Origin: Tahibacter amnicola
GTDB taxonomy: Bacteria > Pseudomonadota > Gammaproteobacteria > Xanthomonadales > Rhodanobacteraceae
NCBI RefSeq assembly: GCF_025398735.1
Contig: NZ_CP104694.1
Span: forward strand, 5,607,465-5,671,464
Length of the DNA: 64,000 bases
Direction: 5' to 3'
The translations under genes and the position numbers were made by a program. The notes under the pieces are model-generated. The model saw only the letters and a program-made list of their open reading frames with translations, did not search any database and was not told where the DNA came from. This document shows, one piece after another, positions 39,372 through 46,626 of the stretch. Each line of letters begins with the position of its first letter. The first letter of the stretch is position 1.

Positions 39372-39935
39372 ATGGGCAACCGCCTTTCGAAAATTTATAC
39401 CCGCACCGGCGATGACGGCACCACGGGGCTTGGCGACGGCACGCGTACGCCGAAGGACTCCGCCCGCGTGACCGCCTACGGCACGGTCGATGAACTCAAC
39501 AGTTCGCTCGGCATGCTGCTGGCGTTGGAAATTCCCGATCCGGTGCGCGAATGCCTGACCCAGGTTCAGCATGACCTCTTCGATCTGGGCGGCGAACTGT
39601 GCATCCCGGGCATGGCGATGGTGTTCGACGCCGATATCGAACGGCTGGAACACACGCTCGACAGCTTCAACGAGGACCTTCCGCCCCTGAAGGATTTCAT
39701 CCTTCCCGCCGGCGGCCTGCCCGCCTCGACCTGCCACCTGGCGCGCACCATCTGCCGGCGCGCCGAGCGTGAGGTCATCACGCTGGGTCGTCACGAAACC
39801 GTGCGCGGTGAAGCCACGCGATATCTCAATCGGCTGTCGGACCTGCTCTTCGTCATCGCCCGCGTGCTCGCCCGCGCCGGCGGCCACGGCGAAGTGCTGT
39901 GGCAGCACGAGCGGCGCCGACGTCCGGCATCCTGA
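39372..39935 (+). CDS. ATP:cob(I)alamin adenosyltransferase, PduO type
   Basis: Transfers the adenosyl group of ATP to cob(I)alamin. The 187-residue product has the N-terminal ATP-binding segment IYTRTGDDGTTGLGDG (about 8-23), YGTVDELNS (about 36-44) and the R-AER-V trimer-core motif (CRRAEREV, about 127-134). GGAG precedes the ATG at good spacing. It is third in the cobS-cobC cluster, consistent with corrinoid adenosylation for salvage or coenzyme B12 formation. Confidence 0.93.
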   Translation: MGNRLSKIYTRTGDDGTTGLGDGTRTPKDSARVTAYGTVDELNSSLGMLLALEIPDPVRECLTQVQHDLFDLGGELCIPGMAMVFDADIERLEHTLDSFNEDLPPLKDFILPAGGLPASTCHLARTICRRAEREVITLGRHETVRGEATRYLNRLSDLLFVIARVLARAGGHGEVLWQHERRRRPAS

Positions 39936-40002
39936 GCGGCATATTCCACGACGCCGCGCTGTATCCTTTGCGGACCCCTCACCCGATGTCGCGAGACCTG
40001 CG

Positions 40003-40941
40003 ATGCCCTGCGCACTCTTCACCCACACCAGCTGCCTGGCGCACGACCCGGGCCCTGGCCATCCCGAATCGCCGCAGCGGCTCAGGGCGGTGCTGGACGC
40101 CTTGCGCCACGAGGCATTCGCGTCGCTGGTGCACCACGAGGCACCGCGGGCCGGGCGGGAACAGCTGGCACGCGTACATGCGCCGGAACTGATTGCGCAC
40201 CTGTTCGAGAATGCGCCGGAAAGCGGCGAACTGCGTGTCGATGCCGATACGGTCATGTCGTCCGGCTCGCTCGACGCCGCGCTGCGGGCAGCCGGTGCGG
40301 TCACCGCAGCCGTCAGCGGCGTGCTGGCGGGCGCGTTCGACCGCGCGTTCTGCGCGGTGCGTCCACCCGGCCACCATGCCACGCGCGACCAGGCGATGGG
40401 TTTTTGCTTTTTCAACAATGTCGCCGTCGGCGCTGCGCAGGCGCTGGCCCAGGGTATCGAACGCGTCGCGGTGGTCGACTTTGACGTGCATCACGGCAAC
40501 GGCACGCAGGACATCTTCTGGAACGATTCCCGCGTTCTCTACGCATCGACTCACCAGTGGCCGCTCTATCCGGGGACGGGCGCCCGCAGCGAAACCGGGG
40601 CGGGCAACATCGTCAACGCGCCATTGCCCCCCGGCGCCGGCGCCAGCGAATTCCGCACCGCCTACACCGATACCATCGTCCCGGCGCTGGATGCCTTCCA
40701 GCCGCAGCTGGTCCTGATCTCGGCCGGATTCGACGCCCACCGGCTCGACCCACTGGCCAACCTCAACCTCGACGACGCCGACTATGACTGGGTAACCACG
40801 CAACTGATCGCCGTTGCCCAGCGCCATGCCCGGGGGCGCGTCGTCTCCAGCCTCGAAGGTGGCTACAGCCTCACGGCGTTGCGCCAAGCCAGCGCAGCCC
40901 ATGTCGCCGCTCTCATGGGCACCAGCCTCACGCCAGACTGA
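40003..40941 (+). CDS. Histone-deacetylase-fold amidohydrolase (acetoin-utilisation/AcuC-like family)
   Basis: Zinc hydrolase of 312 residues that removes acetyl or related groups from amines; bacterial substrates are often polyamines or acetylated proteins, not determined here. The catalytic RPPGHHATRDQAMGFCFFNN (about 119-138) and metal-binding VDFDVHHGNGTQ (about 158-169) are intact, as is the C-terminal GGYSL. I chose the ATG opening MPCALFTHTSC; the frame is open upstream through the previous gene. Its end abuts a DUF2135-type gene fragment that has no start codon of its own. Confidence 0.9.
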   Translation: MPCALFTHTSCLAHDPGPGHPESPQRLRAVLDALRHEAFASLVHHEAPRAGREQLARVHAPELIAHLFENAPESGELRVDADTVMSSGSLDAALRAAGAVTAAVSGVLAGAFDRAFCAVRPPGHHATRDQAMGFCFFNNVAVGAAQALAQGIERVAVVDFDVHHGNGTQDIFWNDSRVLYASTHQWPLYPGTGARSETGAGNIVNAPLPPGAGASEFRTAYTDTIVPALDAFQPQLVLISAGFDAHRLDPLANLNLDDADYDWVTTQLIAVAQRHARGRVVSSLEGGYSLTALRQASAAHVAALMGTSLTPD

Positions 40942-42115: not shown

Positions 42116-42647
42116 ACCGACGCGCCGCGCGACAACGACGCTACGGACGACTCGCCCGCATCATCCTGCGCATTGGCACGCGTGATCGCGGCCAGCTAGC
42201 GCAATGCCCATTGTCGTTTCGTGATCCGGTTGGCAACTTCGTTGCAAATTCCACCTGCACGCACTTTCTACATGCCACGCCTGCAAACCTGTCACTTTTT
42301 GCAGTCCCGCCGAGTGAGCAGGTCACGGTAATCTGCGCAGACTTCGAACGTGGGAATGCCCGGCGGGCCCGCGCGGCATTGGCGTTTCCTGCAGCCGCGC
42401 ATTGGCGTATTGCACCGCACCCGCACAGAGCAGTACGGCGCGCAACCGCACGCACAGCAACGACCAGCGCGACATAGCGAAAGTCACTTCGCTACTTCTT
42501 TCTTTGTCACTTTTATTTACACGTCGTTTTTCCCTGGTGCTAGACTGAAATCGCCACTGGCATCCCTGAATTGTGTCGTCCTGCGCAGCGCCCGCCGTGC
42601 GGTGCGGCACGATCGGGATGGGCGGGGCCGGACTCAGGGGAGCACCG
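42116..42647 (+). promoter_or_regulatory. 532-base intergenic region before the GTPase/roadblock module
   Basis: No gene is supported here. The stretch 42480-42545 is notably AT-rich for this genome and ends in an extended -10 element, TGCTAGACT (42538-42546), without a clear -35 box. This is the likely promoter of the four-gene module, giving a leader of about 95 bases. No known regulator site was recognised. Confidence 0.4.
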
Positions 42648-43595
42648 ATGCAAAGACGACGTATCGCCGTCGTCGGCCTGACCGACGACGCCACGCATGC
42701 GTTTCACTCCATGCTCAAGATCGTCGACGGACGTTCGCGCGCGGAATGGCTGCTCGCCGATCCGGAGCACGCTGACGTACTCATGGCCGGCGACGCAAAC
42801 CACTCGCCAGTGGTGGAGCGCTGGGCGATGTCGCGCAAGCCCGTCATCGCCGTTCAGGAGCTTGGCCAGTCACCGCCCAATGCGACATTCACCCTGAAAC
42901 ACCCTTTCCGGGTGATGCAGCTGCTGGATGTGCTGGATGAAATCGAGCGCCAGCTCGGCACAACGCCGGCCACGGCACGCAGCCCGGCCGGTCCGATGGA
43001 TGCCACGCGCTGGGGCTTCCTCACTTCACTGCACGAGCTGGCGACGCGGCCCGATGACGCGCACCGCTACTACGCCGCGCGCACGCCAACAGGCACGCTG
43101 GCGGTGCGCGGCGACCTGTCGACCTTCGTCGCGGCCGCCGCCATCCACACCCAGTTGCGGCGTGGTGCACTGGCGCTGCCGCCGCTGGAACTGCAGGCAG
43201 ACCCTTCACCAACGGATGGCATCGAGGCACCGGGCGTTGTACTCCTGTGGTACGCCGGGCTTGGCGCGCCGGAAGGCATGGCCCCCTGGATCAACCCCAC
43301 AGGCACGTTTGCATTGCGGCGCTGGCCGGATTTCGGCGTGCTCGGTGCCGCGCGGGAACACCTGCTCCTATCCGCGGCATTGTCGCTGGGCACCTTCGAC
43401 GTTACGACACTCTGCAGCCTGACCGGCCAATCAGTGACGGCCGTCCAGCGCTACCTGGCGGCGTGCTCACTGTGCCAGCTTCTGGTTGCCTCGGAGGCGG
43501 CCACTTCAGCGGATGTGGTGATTCCCCCGCCCGTGTTGTCAGGACTCGCCGGCTTCATGCGCAGTTTGCGGCTGCGCCTGGGTCTGTCCGCATGA
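42648..43595 (+). CDS. Uncharacterised receiver-like protein heading the GTPase/roadblock module
   Basis: Product of 315 residues from an ATG with CAGGGGAG upstream. Residues 1-105 have the alternating strand/helix pattern of a degenerate receiver domain (RRIAVVGLTDD, ADVLMAGDANHS, KPVIAVQELGQ, TLKHPFRVMQLLDVLDEIER), but I cannot place a phosphorylatable Asp with confidence. The C-terminal part (about 230-300) ends in a winged-helix-like stretch (FDVTTLCSLTGQSVTAVQRY). It overlaps the GTPase gene by ATGA. I recognise no named family; a regulator or scaffold for the GTPase is inferred from context. Confidence 0.6.
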   Translation: MQRRRIAVVGLTDDATHAFHSMLKIVDGRSRAEWLLADPEHADVLMAGDANHSPVVERWAMSRKPVIAVQELGQSPPNATFTLKHPFRVMQLLDVLDEIERQLGTTPATARSPAGPMDATRWGFLTSLHELATRPDDAHRYYAARTPTGTLAVRGDLSTFVAAAAIHTQLRRGALALPPLELQADPSPTDGIEAPGVVLLWYAGLGAPEGMAPWINPTGTFALRRWPDFGVLGAAREHLLLSAALSLGTFDVTTLCSLTGQSVTAVQRYLAACSLCQLLVASEAATSADVVIPPPVLSGLAGFMRSLRLRLGLSA

Positions 43596-44149
43596 ACACG
43601 GCCGATACCGAGTTCAAGATCGTCTTCACCGGCCCGATGGGAGCCGGCAAAACAACCGCCATCGGCGCCATCAGTGACGATGCACCCGTCTCGACCGAAG
43701 TTGCGAACACCGATGAATACGCGTACGACAAGGCCCTGACCACGTGCGGCCTGGATTACGGCTTCATCGCCCTGGACGATGGTCGCGGCGCGCGCCTGTA
43801 CGGTACACCGGGCCAGGTCCGCTTCCGTTTCATGTGGGACATCCTGTCCCGCAATGCCACCGGCATCGTGCTGCTGCTCGACGCGGCGCAATCCGACGCG
43901 TTGTCCCAATTGGAATTTTTCCTGGATCACTTCGGCAGCGACCGGTTGACGCCCATCATCGTCGGCGTGGGACGTACGGGACAATCCGGTGCACATCCCC
44001 TGGGCGCCTTCTCCGAACTGCTCGAACGGCGCGGACGCGTCATTCCGGTGTTCAGCGTCGACGTGCGCCAGCGTTCCGACGTGATCCTGTTGATCGATGC
44101 ACTGCTGTGCGTGATCGAGCTGTCCGAACGGCTCAGGAGGAGCGCATGA
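43592..44149 (+). CDS. Small Ras-like GTPase (COG2229/CvnD-MglA related), degenerate G4
   Basis: Product of 185 residues. The P loop GPMGAGKTT spans residues 14-22 and the G3 region reads YGTPGQVRF (70-78), matching the TPGQ form of COG2229 and MglA-type GTPases. The usual NKxD guanine-specificity motif is replaced by VGVGRTGQ at about 124-131, so nucleotide preference is uncertain. It overlaps its neighbours on both sides by ATGA. In such families the GTPase is controlled by roadblock/LC7 partners, two of which follow. Likely roles are polarity, surface motility or signal relay; none is proven here. Confidence 0.82.
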   Translation: MNTADTEFKIVFTGPMGAGKTTAIGAISDDAPVSTEVANTDEYAYDKALTTCGLDYGFIALDDGRGARLYGTPGQVRFRFMWDILSRNATGIVLLLDAAQSDALSQLEFFLDHFGSDRLTPIIVGVGRTGQSGAHPLGAFSELLERRGRVIPVFSVDVRQRSDVILLIDALLCVIELSERLRRSA

Positions 44150-44550
44150 CTGCCATGCCACGATTCGGCCGCGTCGCAGTCGGCGTCGCGCAGAAGCACC
44201 TGGACGCACTGGGTAATGCCACCGTCGGTGTGGTCTCCGCGGTACTGATGAGTGCAGACGGTTTCGAGGTCGCATCACTGCAGGTCGGCAAGGGCGGCGC
44301 AGCGCGACTGGCGGCGATGGGCAGCTCCCTGTCGGCGATCGGCTCGGCGATAGCACGCGAAGCCGGCATCGTGGACTGCAATCGCATGATTATCCAGGCT
44401 GACACCGGCACGGTGGTCGTCATGAACATCCCTACCGCGAAGCCGCCGATGTCGCTGGCGGTAGTGGCCAATGAAGAAGCCGTTCTGGGCAAGTTGTTGT
44501 GGGCGGCGTCCAACTGCTGTGCGGCCGTTGGCCGCGCGTTCGGCGAATAA
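44146..44550 (+). CDS. Roadblock/LC7-like protein, first copy
   Basis: Product of 134 residues. The core (GVVSAVLMSADGFEVASLQV, SSLSAIGSAIAREAG, MIIQADTGTVVVMNIP) follows the strand-strand-helix order of roadblock/LC7 domains, which form dimers and act as GTPase regulators (MglB, CvnB). GGAGGAG-like bases precede the start, which overlaps the GTPase stop. The C-terminal helix includes adjacent cysteines (SNCCAAVG). It probably binds the GTPase encoded just upstream. Confidence 0.78.
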   Translation: MTAMPRFGRVAVGVAQKHLDALGNATVGVVSAVLMSADGFEVASLQVGKGGAARLAAMGSSLSAIGSAIAREAGIVDCNRMIIQADTGTVVVMNIPTAKPPMSLAVVANEEAVLGKLLWAASNCCAAVGRAFGE

Positions 44551-44621
44551 CGCGGAACCGGGCGTCGTCGCACCACGTCCGCTTCCACCCTGCACCGGTG
44601 CGTCCCCTCCAGGAGAATTCC

Positions 44622-44981
44622 ATGGGCAACGTCAATGACAGTCTCACGAACCTGATGCAGTGCGATGGCTCCATGTGCGCAGCGCTGGTGGATTCGAACA
44701 GCGGCATGACACTGGGCCGCGTCGGCACTGGCATGGATCTGGATCTGGCCGCCGCGGGCAATACGGAAGTGGTTCGCGCCAAGCTCAAGACGATGAAGAG
44801 CCTTGGGCTCAACGACAGCATCGAGGACATCCTGATTACCCTGGGTAAGCAATATCACGTGATCCGACCGATTGCGGCCAAGACGGGTCTGTTCATTTAC
44901 CTTGTGCTCGACAAGGCCAAGGCGAACCTGGCCCTGGCGCGCCGCGCGTGCCAGGAGGCGGAATCCGGCCTGGTGGTCTGA
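44622..44981 (+). CDS. Roadblock/LC7-like protein, second copy
   Basis: Product of 119 residues with a strong AGGAG site 6 bases before the ATG. The domain is recognisable (GSMCAALVDSNSGMTLGRVG, IEDILITLGKQYHVIRPI, GLFIYLVLDKAKANLALARR). It is 71 bases after the first copy and clearly diverged from it, so the two may form a heterodimer or serve different partners. It is the last gene of the module; a small hairpin (GCTACG/CGTAGC, 45060-45076) follows. Confidence 0.78.
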   Translation: MGNVNDSLTNLMQCDGSMCAALVDSNSGMTLGRVGTGMDLDLAAAGNTEVVRAKLKTMKSLGLNDSIEDILITLGKQYHVIRPIAAKTGLFIYLVLDKAKANLALARRACQEAESGLVV

Positions 44982-45181: not shown

Positions 45182-45199
45182 CCACCTCTTTCGAGGTGG
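45182..45199 (+). promoter_or_regulatory. Hairpin covering the rtcB ribosome binding site
   Basis: A perfect 7-bp stem CCACCTC/GAGGTGG (45182-45188/45193-45199) with loop TTTC places the GAGG ribosome binding site of rtcB in its 3' arm, 5 bases before the ATG at 45202. If it forms in the messenger, translation would be blocked until the stem is melted or cut. Sequence is direct evidence; regulation is inferred. Confidence 0.55.
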
Positions 45200-45201
45200 C
45201 G

Positions 45202-46626
45202 ATGACGCTTGCTCGGCAGCTTCTCATGAAAATCCCCCTTTCCCGGCTTCAGAAAGCCTTCGCGCGGCGCGGCATTGCCGTCGAACGCGTATCCCATTCC
45301 TACGTTGTACGCCGCGGCGACGATTCCGCCCGGATCCTTCTTCCACCTGACTTCGAGCTGGAAGGCAGGGCCGTTTCCCAATTGCTGGATTTTGCAGCCG
45401 TCGGCTGGCCTGACCGCCCGCGCCCGGTGCGCTGCGCCTGCGCCACACCGGATTTCCACCCGGGCTCGCTGGCGCCAGTTGGCAGCGTCGTGGCCACCGA
45501 TGCCGATGTGGTGATTCCCGCGGCCATCGGCACCGACATCAATTGCGGCATGCGCCTGATCACCACCGGCCTGACGCTGACCCAGATGGCGTCGCACGAA
45601 GCGCGCTGGACCCGGGTGCTCACCGAACGGCTGCTGCACACACGGACGGACGCACCGGTACCAGCGCGCGCGTTCCGGGCCTTGTTCGACGATTCACCAT
45701 TGGCGTGCCTGCGTGCGCTCGGCCGCTCCGGCGTTTGGGCGGGCACCGATTTCGCCCGTCTCGAACGTGAAGTGCGTGCCTGCGTCGCTCTGGACACGCT
45801 TCGCGCAGACAGCGTCCACGCGCCGGATTTCCTCGTGAATGGCCAGGACCAGGTACGTTCGCCGGACCTTGGCACCATCGGTTCCGGCAATCACTTCGTC
45901 GAGCTGCAGATCGTCGACGCAATCCTCGACCGCCAGGTGGCCTACACGGCCGGACTGCGTGCCGGTGACGTGGTGGCCATGATTCACAGTGGATCCCGCG
46001 GCATTGGCTTCCATGTCGGCCGCCGCTGGATCGACAAGGCCAAATCCGCCTGGCCGGCAGGGACGTCACATCCGACGAGCGGGCTCTACGCGCTGCGCGG
46101 CCCCGCCGCAGAAGACTACTTCCAGGCAATGGGAACGGCTGCGCGCTACGCGTGGCTCAATCGCGTCGTCCTCGCGGAATGGGTGCGCGAGGCGCTGGAA
46201 GCTACCGTCGGTGCGGGCAGCTCACGCCTCGTGGTCGATGTACCGCACAACATCATCACGAAAGAACACGGACTGCACATCCACCGCAAGGGTTCAACGC
46301 CTGCCCACGACGGTCAGTGGGCGTTGCTGCCAGGTTCGATGGGTGATGCGTCGTACCTGGTGACGGGGCTTGGCCATCCGGAATGGCTGTGGTCGTGCAG
46401 CCACGGTGCGGGTCGGCGCGTGCGCCGGCACAGCGTACGCCGCCACTCATCACACACCGCAGCAAAGACGACCGAGTGGCACTGCCACACGCTGCGCGAA
46501 GAACGGCGCCTGGAGGAGCATCCCGACGCGTACAAACCGATCGGGCCGGTCATCGAATCGCAGGCGGAAGCCGGCCTTATCCGCGCGGCGATCCGCTTTC
46601 GTCCCTGGCGCACGTTCAAGGCCTGA
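45202..46626 (+). CDS. rtcB: RNA ligase RtcB
   Basis: GTP- and Mn-dependent ligase joining 2',3'-cyclic phosphate or 3'-phosphate RNA ends to 5'-OH ends, used in RNA repair. The 474-residue product keeps the metal and catalytic residues: TDINCGM (about 115-121), GSGNHFVE (about 232-239), IHSGSRGIG (about 262-270), PHN (about 350), RKGSTPA (about 363-369), PGSMG and the guanylate-accepting His in CSHGAGR. ATG 45202 is preferred; a GTG two codons earlier sits inside the hairpin. No rtcA or rtcR is adjacent. Confidence 0.9.
   Translation: MTLARQLLMKIPLSRLQKAFARRGIAVERVSHSYVVRRGDDSARILLPPDFELEGRAVSQLLDFAAVGWPDRPRPVRCACATPDFHPGSLAPVGSVVATDADVVIPAAIGTDINCGMRLITTGLTLTQMASHEARWTRVLTERLLHTRTDAPVPARAFRALFDDSPLACLRALGRSGVWAGTDFARLEREVRACVALDTLRADSVHAPDFLVNGQDQVRSPDLGTIGSGNHFVELQIVDAILDRQVAYTAGLRAGDVVAMIHSGSRGIGFHVGRRWIDKAKSAWPAGTSHPTSGLYALRGPAAEDYFQAMGTAARYAWLNRVVLAEWVREALEATVGAGSSRLVVDVPHNIITKEHGLHIHRKGSTPAHDGQWALLPGSMGDASYLVTGLGHPEWLWSCSHGAGRRVRRHSVRRHSSHTAAKTTEWHCHTLREERRLEEHPDAYKPIGPVIESQAEAGLIRAAIRFRPWRTFKA

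Follow-up and report, generated by a model that had tools for sequence, protein, structure and literature searches.

The window we analyzed is a stretch of 64,000 nucleotides from Tahibacter amnicola (contig NZ_CP104694.1), and it contains at positions 42648..44981 a unit of four genes, here called A to D, which encode a lead protein (A), a small GTPase (B), and two roadblock proteins (C and D). The set is real and conserved, and it is a member of a class that has already been described: the unit is very probably an MglA Group 3 system in the sense of Wuichet and Sogaard-Andersen (2014; PMC4316618). A sequence-only reading, made without database searches, had proposed a four-gene unit with a 315-residue lead protein and ATGA joins between the first three genes, and its coordinates, sizes and overlaps are correct. 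ATGA forms the shared bases of A and B (43592-43595) and of B and C (44146-44149), and C and D are spaced by 71 bases in the window. That reading could match the unit to no described system; this part has to be given up, as the excerpted text of PMC4316618 describes Group 3 systems with the receiver-like N-terminus, the winged helix, and one or two MglB.

Assignment to the MglA Group 3 Class

According to the excerpts of PMC4316618, Group 3 is a class drawn from genome comparisons in which a protein of unknown function is encoded with MglA and one or two MglB, almost only in beta- and gamma-Proteobacteria. The first protein has a receiver-like N-terminus, a variable linker, and a C-terminus recognized as a winged helix with Phyre2. 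The same excerpts give GTPGQ and a threonine replacing the arginine finger for Groups 2-5, a changed G4 motif (not [NT]KxD) and a DAR motif for Groups 2 and 3, and an Asp-Gly pair for the partner MglB. Compared with Group 3 as excerpted, including the mgl operon of Snodgrassella (PMC11112851), the window set has the same architecture of A, an MglA-family GTPase, and a number of MglB within the range of the class, in the form of two coupled roadblocks, with the Asp-Gly pair in C; its B carries GTPGQ, the threonine, a changed G4, and Asp-x-Arg.

Some observations call for reserve. Of 68 B proteins, 41 have GTPGQ to the letter, and in the window D has Ser-Gly rather than Asp-Gly. A point against the assignment is that our tree of 86 GTPases, whose deep forks are weak, holds no Group 3 reference from the 2014 supplement. 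Some relatives of the window set have a third roadblock-like gene, whereas the excerpts describe one or two MglB, and the set has relatives in Croceicoccus and Microbacteriaceae as well, whereas the class was described almost exclusively from beta- and gamma-Proteobacteria. The third-roadblock form and the presence in these two taxa are new relative to the 2014 class; they extend Group 3 and leave its kind unchanged.

The GTPase and Its Relation to Other MglA Groups

B matches the Pfam family ATP_bind_1 at 2.6e-9 and Rab and MglA chains in the PDB. This bears out the MglA-type GTPase of the sequence-only reading; the two roadblocks that it named also hold, C through Robl_LC7 and D by its fold. 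The Asp-x-Arg motif of the window B is Asp157-Val-Arg159, and Thr50-Thr51 in the G2 region is nearly invariant over 21 alignment rows. Matched anywhere in the domain, as was GTPGQ above, G[TCV]PGQ occurs in 55 of the 68 B proteins, D[AV]R in 53, and [NT]KxD in 2. The window B differs from the MglAB systems of Group 1, to which the excerpts of PMC4316618 assign TVPGQ in G3 and an arginine finger in G2, by its GTPGQ and by the Thr-Thr of its G2 region.

The conservons of Streptomyces (CvnA-D, MglA Group 2) share two components with the window set, as the B profile finds CvnD (best 1.9e-37) and the C profile finds CvnB (best 8e-20). However, conservons have a histidine kinase and a DUF742 protein where the window has A. 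No kinase match was found among A-D, and none was noted in the scanned flanking genes; DUF742 (CvnC, PF05331) gave zero matches in the T. amnicola genome at 1e-3. The D profile had zero matches in conservon loci, and the A profile had zero matches in 23 conservon loci at E values up to 10. In the GTPase tree, 17 conservon GTPases form one clade (100/100) that excludes the window B, which groups with rows from Tahibacter, Alcanivorax, Dokdonella, and Steroidobacter. With weak deep forks and long branches that meet, the tree is a firmer basis for keeping B apart from the conservon GTPases than for any more detailed placement. The separation from conservons that had been read from the sequence is confirmed by the lack of a kinase and of DUF742 and by the separate GTPase clade.

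The longest end branch in the tree belongs to a very diverged GTPase gene that directly precedes the D gene in a record titled Enterobacter sp. kpr-6 (L083); another pair of a D-type and a C-type gene lies about 6 kb upstream in the same record.

The Lead Protein

As judged from its predicted structure and from profile comparisons, A combines a pseudo-receiver with a generic, low-charge winged helix and ends in a short helix. The N-terminus takes a receiver fold in the AlphaFold model, and in the sequence the usual phosphorylation residues are mostly lost, in agreement with the degenerate receiver noticed earlier. Membership of A in a known unrelated family, which the sequence-only reading had named as an argument against a dedicated module, was also checked, and A alone matched no significant Pfam family. 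Among 23 A relatives the Pfam matches were weak only (the best being HTH_IclR at 0.003 in 2 of 23, a dimerisation domain at 0.0065 in 4 of 23), and of these only the HTH match agrees with the fold. Oxaloacetate decarboxylase, suggested by NCBIfam, was rejected as a weak match (18 bits against a cut-off above 800).

The profile of A matches DNA-binding winged helices in the PDB, with SmtB first at 4.1e-4. In hhalign the winged helix aligns with IclR (94% probability), MarR (92%), and DUF742 (90%); with DUF742, the highest value among 60 column shuffles was no more than 1.4%. We rejected DUF742 as a specific relative of the C-terminus of A, as the match is unspecific and is exceeded by IclR and MarR. 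In the reverse comparison DUF742 prefers A (91%) over IclR (84%) and MarR (66%), and we build nothing on this. The winged helices of A carry a net charge that averages +0.26 (n=47), compared with +2.05 in IclR (n=22), +2.0 in MarR (n=22), and -1.88 in DUF742 (n=17).

These properties bear on the proposal in PMC4316618 that such systems are transcription relays, in which A would be under the control of the GTPase state and would regulate genes by binding DNA through its winged helix. Many response regulators consist of a receiver and a winged helix; the matches to SmtB, IclR, and MarR fit a DNA-binding domain, and a block of DNA is conserved upstream of A (Table 1). However, the usual phosphorylation residues of A are mostly lost, and the charge of its winged helix, far from the values of about +2 in IclR and MarR, is a hint, and only a hint, in the same direction. 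We consider a transcription relay unlikely.

The middle domain of A gave no signal against roadblock and GTPase profiles. Structure searches with the whole A model barely cover it, and therefore we claim no new fold. Pseudo-receiver/PATAN proteins act on pilus motors in cyanobacteria, and if the middle domain were PATAN (DUF4388), A would be a protein of this kind. PATAN was the best of 8 profiles compared with the middle domain, and according to the excerpts of PMC4316618 some of the MglA genes in Groups 1 and 5 have PATAN proteins encoded in their vicinity. However, its probability was only 1.1%, and DUF4388 was found in none of 23 A proteins (Pfam, E values up to 1) and in none of 94 genomes of the class, T. 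amnicola included. We rejected PATAN as the middle domain, and an action of A on pilus motors by this route is highly improbable.

The Two Roadblock Proteins

C aligns with Robl_LC7 at 2.9e-4, slightly short of the curated cut-off, and its profile makes firm matches to solved roadblocks in the PDB, including CvnB5 at 8.5e-12. Its Asp-Gly pair is invariant in 21 rows. D alone matches zero Pfam families, and 5 of 23 D relatives aligned with Robl_LC7 at E values up to 1 (best 0.0017). Its AlphaFold model has the roadblock order of elements (predicted local distance difference test, pLDDT, 89.7), and a Foldseek search with this model ranks a Streptomyces roadblock and Myxococcus MglB first. On the strength of the model, D is a true roadblock fold. 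At the position of the Asp-Gly pair of C it has Ser27-Gly28, an equivalence judged by eye.

Between the window and locus L003 the proteins are 44% (A), 67% (B), 77% (C), and 81% (D) identical, and in loci L010-L025 the identity of D is 56-74% where it was found, compared with 23-36% for A. Invariant residues number 28 in D (23 sequences) and 7 in C (21 sequences), the two sets of sequences differing somewhat. Genomes can carry extra copies, with up to three D matches in one genome. From these observations we infer that C is a partner resembling a GTPase-activating protein (GAP) and that D is a hub with a fixed partner.

Conservation of Gene Order and Host Range

Genes for A are present in 23 of 197 genomes (T. 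amnicola and its relatives). Among the 24 loci of the same order in which A is present, counting that of the window, 18 have A, B, C, and D all together; within the 1.5 kb flanks in which these loci were viewed, some gene is missing in the other six (L009, L015, L016, L019, L020, L021). A scan of a species genome collection with D as bait gave at least 565 confirmed matches, and the best 80, a selection that favors close relatives, were taken as loci. All four genes are together in 57 of these 80: 55 were filed as A-B-C-D by rule, and in L070 and L117 the four genes are present but the starts of open reading frames misled the rule. For some reading frames overlapping true genes, simple rules based on length decided the case. 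Of the remaining loci, seven have B-C-D with no match to A (L076, L080, L084, L087, L092, L102, L122), three lie at contig ends (L050, L079, L105), and one, L089 from Microbacteriaceae, has A placed after D. No C adjoins D in 12 of the 80. The survey of gene order that the sequence-only reading had suggested thus finds a dedicated module whose gene order recurs much more often than chance would allow, Lysobacterales and Burkholderiales included.

Where hosts are named, the best 80 loci come mostly from Comamonadaceae, Lysobacterales, and further beta and gamma lineages, including Stenotrophomonas, which agrees with the described range of Group 3. The exceptions are three Croceicoccus (L101, L112, L115), four Microbacteriaceae (L089, L117, L118, L120), and one record titled Deltaproteobacteria. 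The GTPases of the three Croceicoccus and four Microbacteriaceae records form one clade (100/96), apart from the conservon clade. This suggests that the set reached Croceicoccus and Microbacteriaceae by horizontal transfer.

In ten loci (L054, L059, L067, L077, L081, L090, L099, L107, L111, L113), at least six of them Comamonadaceae by title, an open frame of roughly 120-130 residues occupies the 425-538 bases between C and D. It looks like a diverged third roadblock: three of the ten are matched by the D profile (3e-3, 1e-2, 9e-5), and the other seven were judged by eye.

Outside the A-D unit, we saw no neighbor family that recurs widely near the loci, and the clusters that do recur seem, by eye, to be either frames antisense to the module or genes that close relatives have in common. 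Beside an orphan D in L062, L066, and L068 (several Comamonadaceae copies) lie an opposed response-regulator-like gene and a PAS-kinase-like gene; these were assigned by eye, and the regulator is plain in L066 and L068.

Features of the Locus

Table 1. Coordinates of the A-D unit and its surroundings in the window (pTM, predicted template modeling score).
Feature	Position	Strand	Remarks
Histone-deacetylase-family gene	39769..40941
Block kept upstream of A within the genus	42516..42547	+	Alignment of upstream DNA, 7 loci
Gene A, lead protein	42648..43595	+	315 residues; relatives found; AlphaFold mean pLDDT 88.5, pTM 0.60
A residues 1-106, domain of receiver fold that lacks the usual catalytic residues	42648..42965	+
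A residues 116-223, middle domain	42993..43316	+	Absent from short A proteins
A residues 229-282, winged helix after invariant Trp-Pro (226-227)	43332..43493	+	hhalign and shuffles; PDB profile match
Gene B, MglA-family small GTPase	43592..44149	+	185 residues
Gene C, MglB/CvnB-like roadblock with Asp-Gly pair	44146..44550	+	134 residues
Gene D, second roadblock without Asp-Gly pair	44622..44981	+	119 residues; most conserved subunit
RtcB-family gene, downstream	45196..46626

Two of the seven upstream sequences in the alignment are identical (G004, from the same genus as the window, and L046, Tahibacter aquaticus). In the window the conserved block reads TTTACA, 19 bases, TAGACT. It could be a promoter or an operator, and the promoter reading is only a guess because scanning this region for consensus sites gave none of the sigma-70 type. 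The flanking genes that were scanned are the histone-deacetylase-like gene, one gene without a Pfam family, and the RtcB-like gene; these neighbors give no functional hint, and the histone-deacetylase-family and RtcB-family genes have no apparent link to the set.

Proposed Mechanism

The products of A-D resemble in outline the polarity module of Myxococcus xanthus, MglA/MglB/MglC/RomR, in that both comprise a GTPase, a GAP-like roadblock, a second roadblock, and a receiver-like protein. In M. xanthus, MglC bridges MglB and RomR, according to excerpts of PMC7949163 and PMC12719032. Because of this resemblance in cast, we tentatively propose, as an analogy that is somewhat more apt to fail than to hold, that A-D form a complex in which D bridges C and A. 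B would be the switch GTPase of a self-contained system and C its activating protein; D would have no activating role on B and would link C to A, as MglC does between MglB and RomR; and A, as a scaffold or as an output partner, would be held through contacts with proteins rather than switched by phosphate.

The analogy has its limits. The MglA of M. xanthus belongs to Group 1, with TVPGQ and an arginine finger (PMC4316618, excerpts), and RomR has a disordered region and a C-terminal helix, with no winged helix named. The bridging role is weakened further by the fold of D, which superimposes on MglB chains with template modeling (TM) scores of 0.72-0.83 and on MglC with 0.57 (5.3 Å), and by the failure of the D profile to find MglC in the PDB. 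The better fit to MglB and the missing profile match indicate that D is no close relative of MglC.

Beyond the complex itself, it is conceivable, though we would rate the whole of this picture as improbable and somewhat more so than the transcription relay, that Group 3 systems are no transcription relays and instead are compact, operon-encoded switches of the polarity type. A would then be a receiver scaffold blind to phosphate that binds proteins through its winged helix and its C-terminal helix, D would be the conserved hub joining A to the GAP C, and further D copies elsewhere in a genome might couple the same switch to other machines.

The Process Controlled

Surface behavior, for example through type IV pili, is the process that we would name first for the set; this step is weak, and the assignment is doubtful. 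In Snodgrassella, a carrier of Group 3, mutation of an orphan mglB leads to colony flares and to an advantage in a non-native bee gut, and the authors infer a pilus route for this effect (PMC11112851, excerpts). For the polarity or pilus role envisaged by the sequence-only reading the signs are mixed: the Snodgrassella study points that way, but PilT is not over the cut-off in 3 of 15 hand-picked D-bearing genomes, all three of them Croceicoccus.

Two further observations weigh against a pilus role: PilT is common anyway, being over the cut-off in 232 of 274 genomes of the class and in 61 of a sample of 120 Microbacteriaceae, and the surroundings of the set show no recurrent family of pilus genes. 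The other 12 of the 15 hand-picked genomes, three Microbacteriaceae among them, have PilT over the cut-off. In the class sample, each of the 12 genomes with D matches PilT at 1e-149 or better. Pilin-like starts were found by pattern in 3 of the 80 loci. In Curtobacterium, genes for pilus ATPases lie on the contig of the set, about 16-18 kb off, with RNA-polymerase-like genes between them (pilins and polymerase were judged by eye), and in Salinibacterium PilT lies on the contig of the set some 600 kb off. Co-occurrence with PilT and the gene neighborhood are mixed, and we give them no weight.

An alternative explanation is that the role in pili or polarity is wrong, and that the set controls another process, or different ones in different hosts, with D copies elsewhere plugging the switch into several pathways. 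The lack of a recurring neighbor family, the 12 loci in which no C adjoins D together with the multiple D copies in some genomes, the three Croceicoccus genomes, and the regulator-like and kinase-like genes that by eye adjoin some orphan D genes are consistent with this explanation. However, the flares of Snodgrassella argue for surface behavior, as far as the excerpts of PMC11112851 go, and so do the strong PilT matches in all of the D-positive genomes of the class sample, although most other genomes of the class have them likewise. We regard this alternative as no less plausible than control of surface behavior, and as equally doubtful.

Among open-licence PMC papers we found one with experimental work on Group 3 systems, and the function of this group is therefore close to open. 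The pseudo-receiver of A with its low-charge winged helix, the GAP-like roadblock C, and the unlike, strongly conserved D make the relay proposed in 2014 one of two options that experiments could tell apart, DNA binding on the one hand and protein scaffolding on the other.
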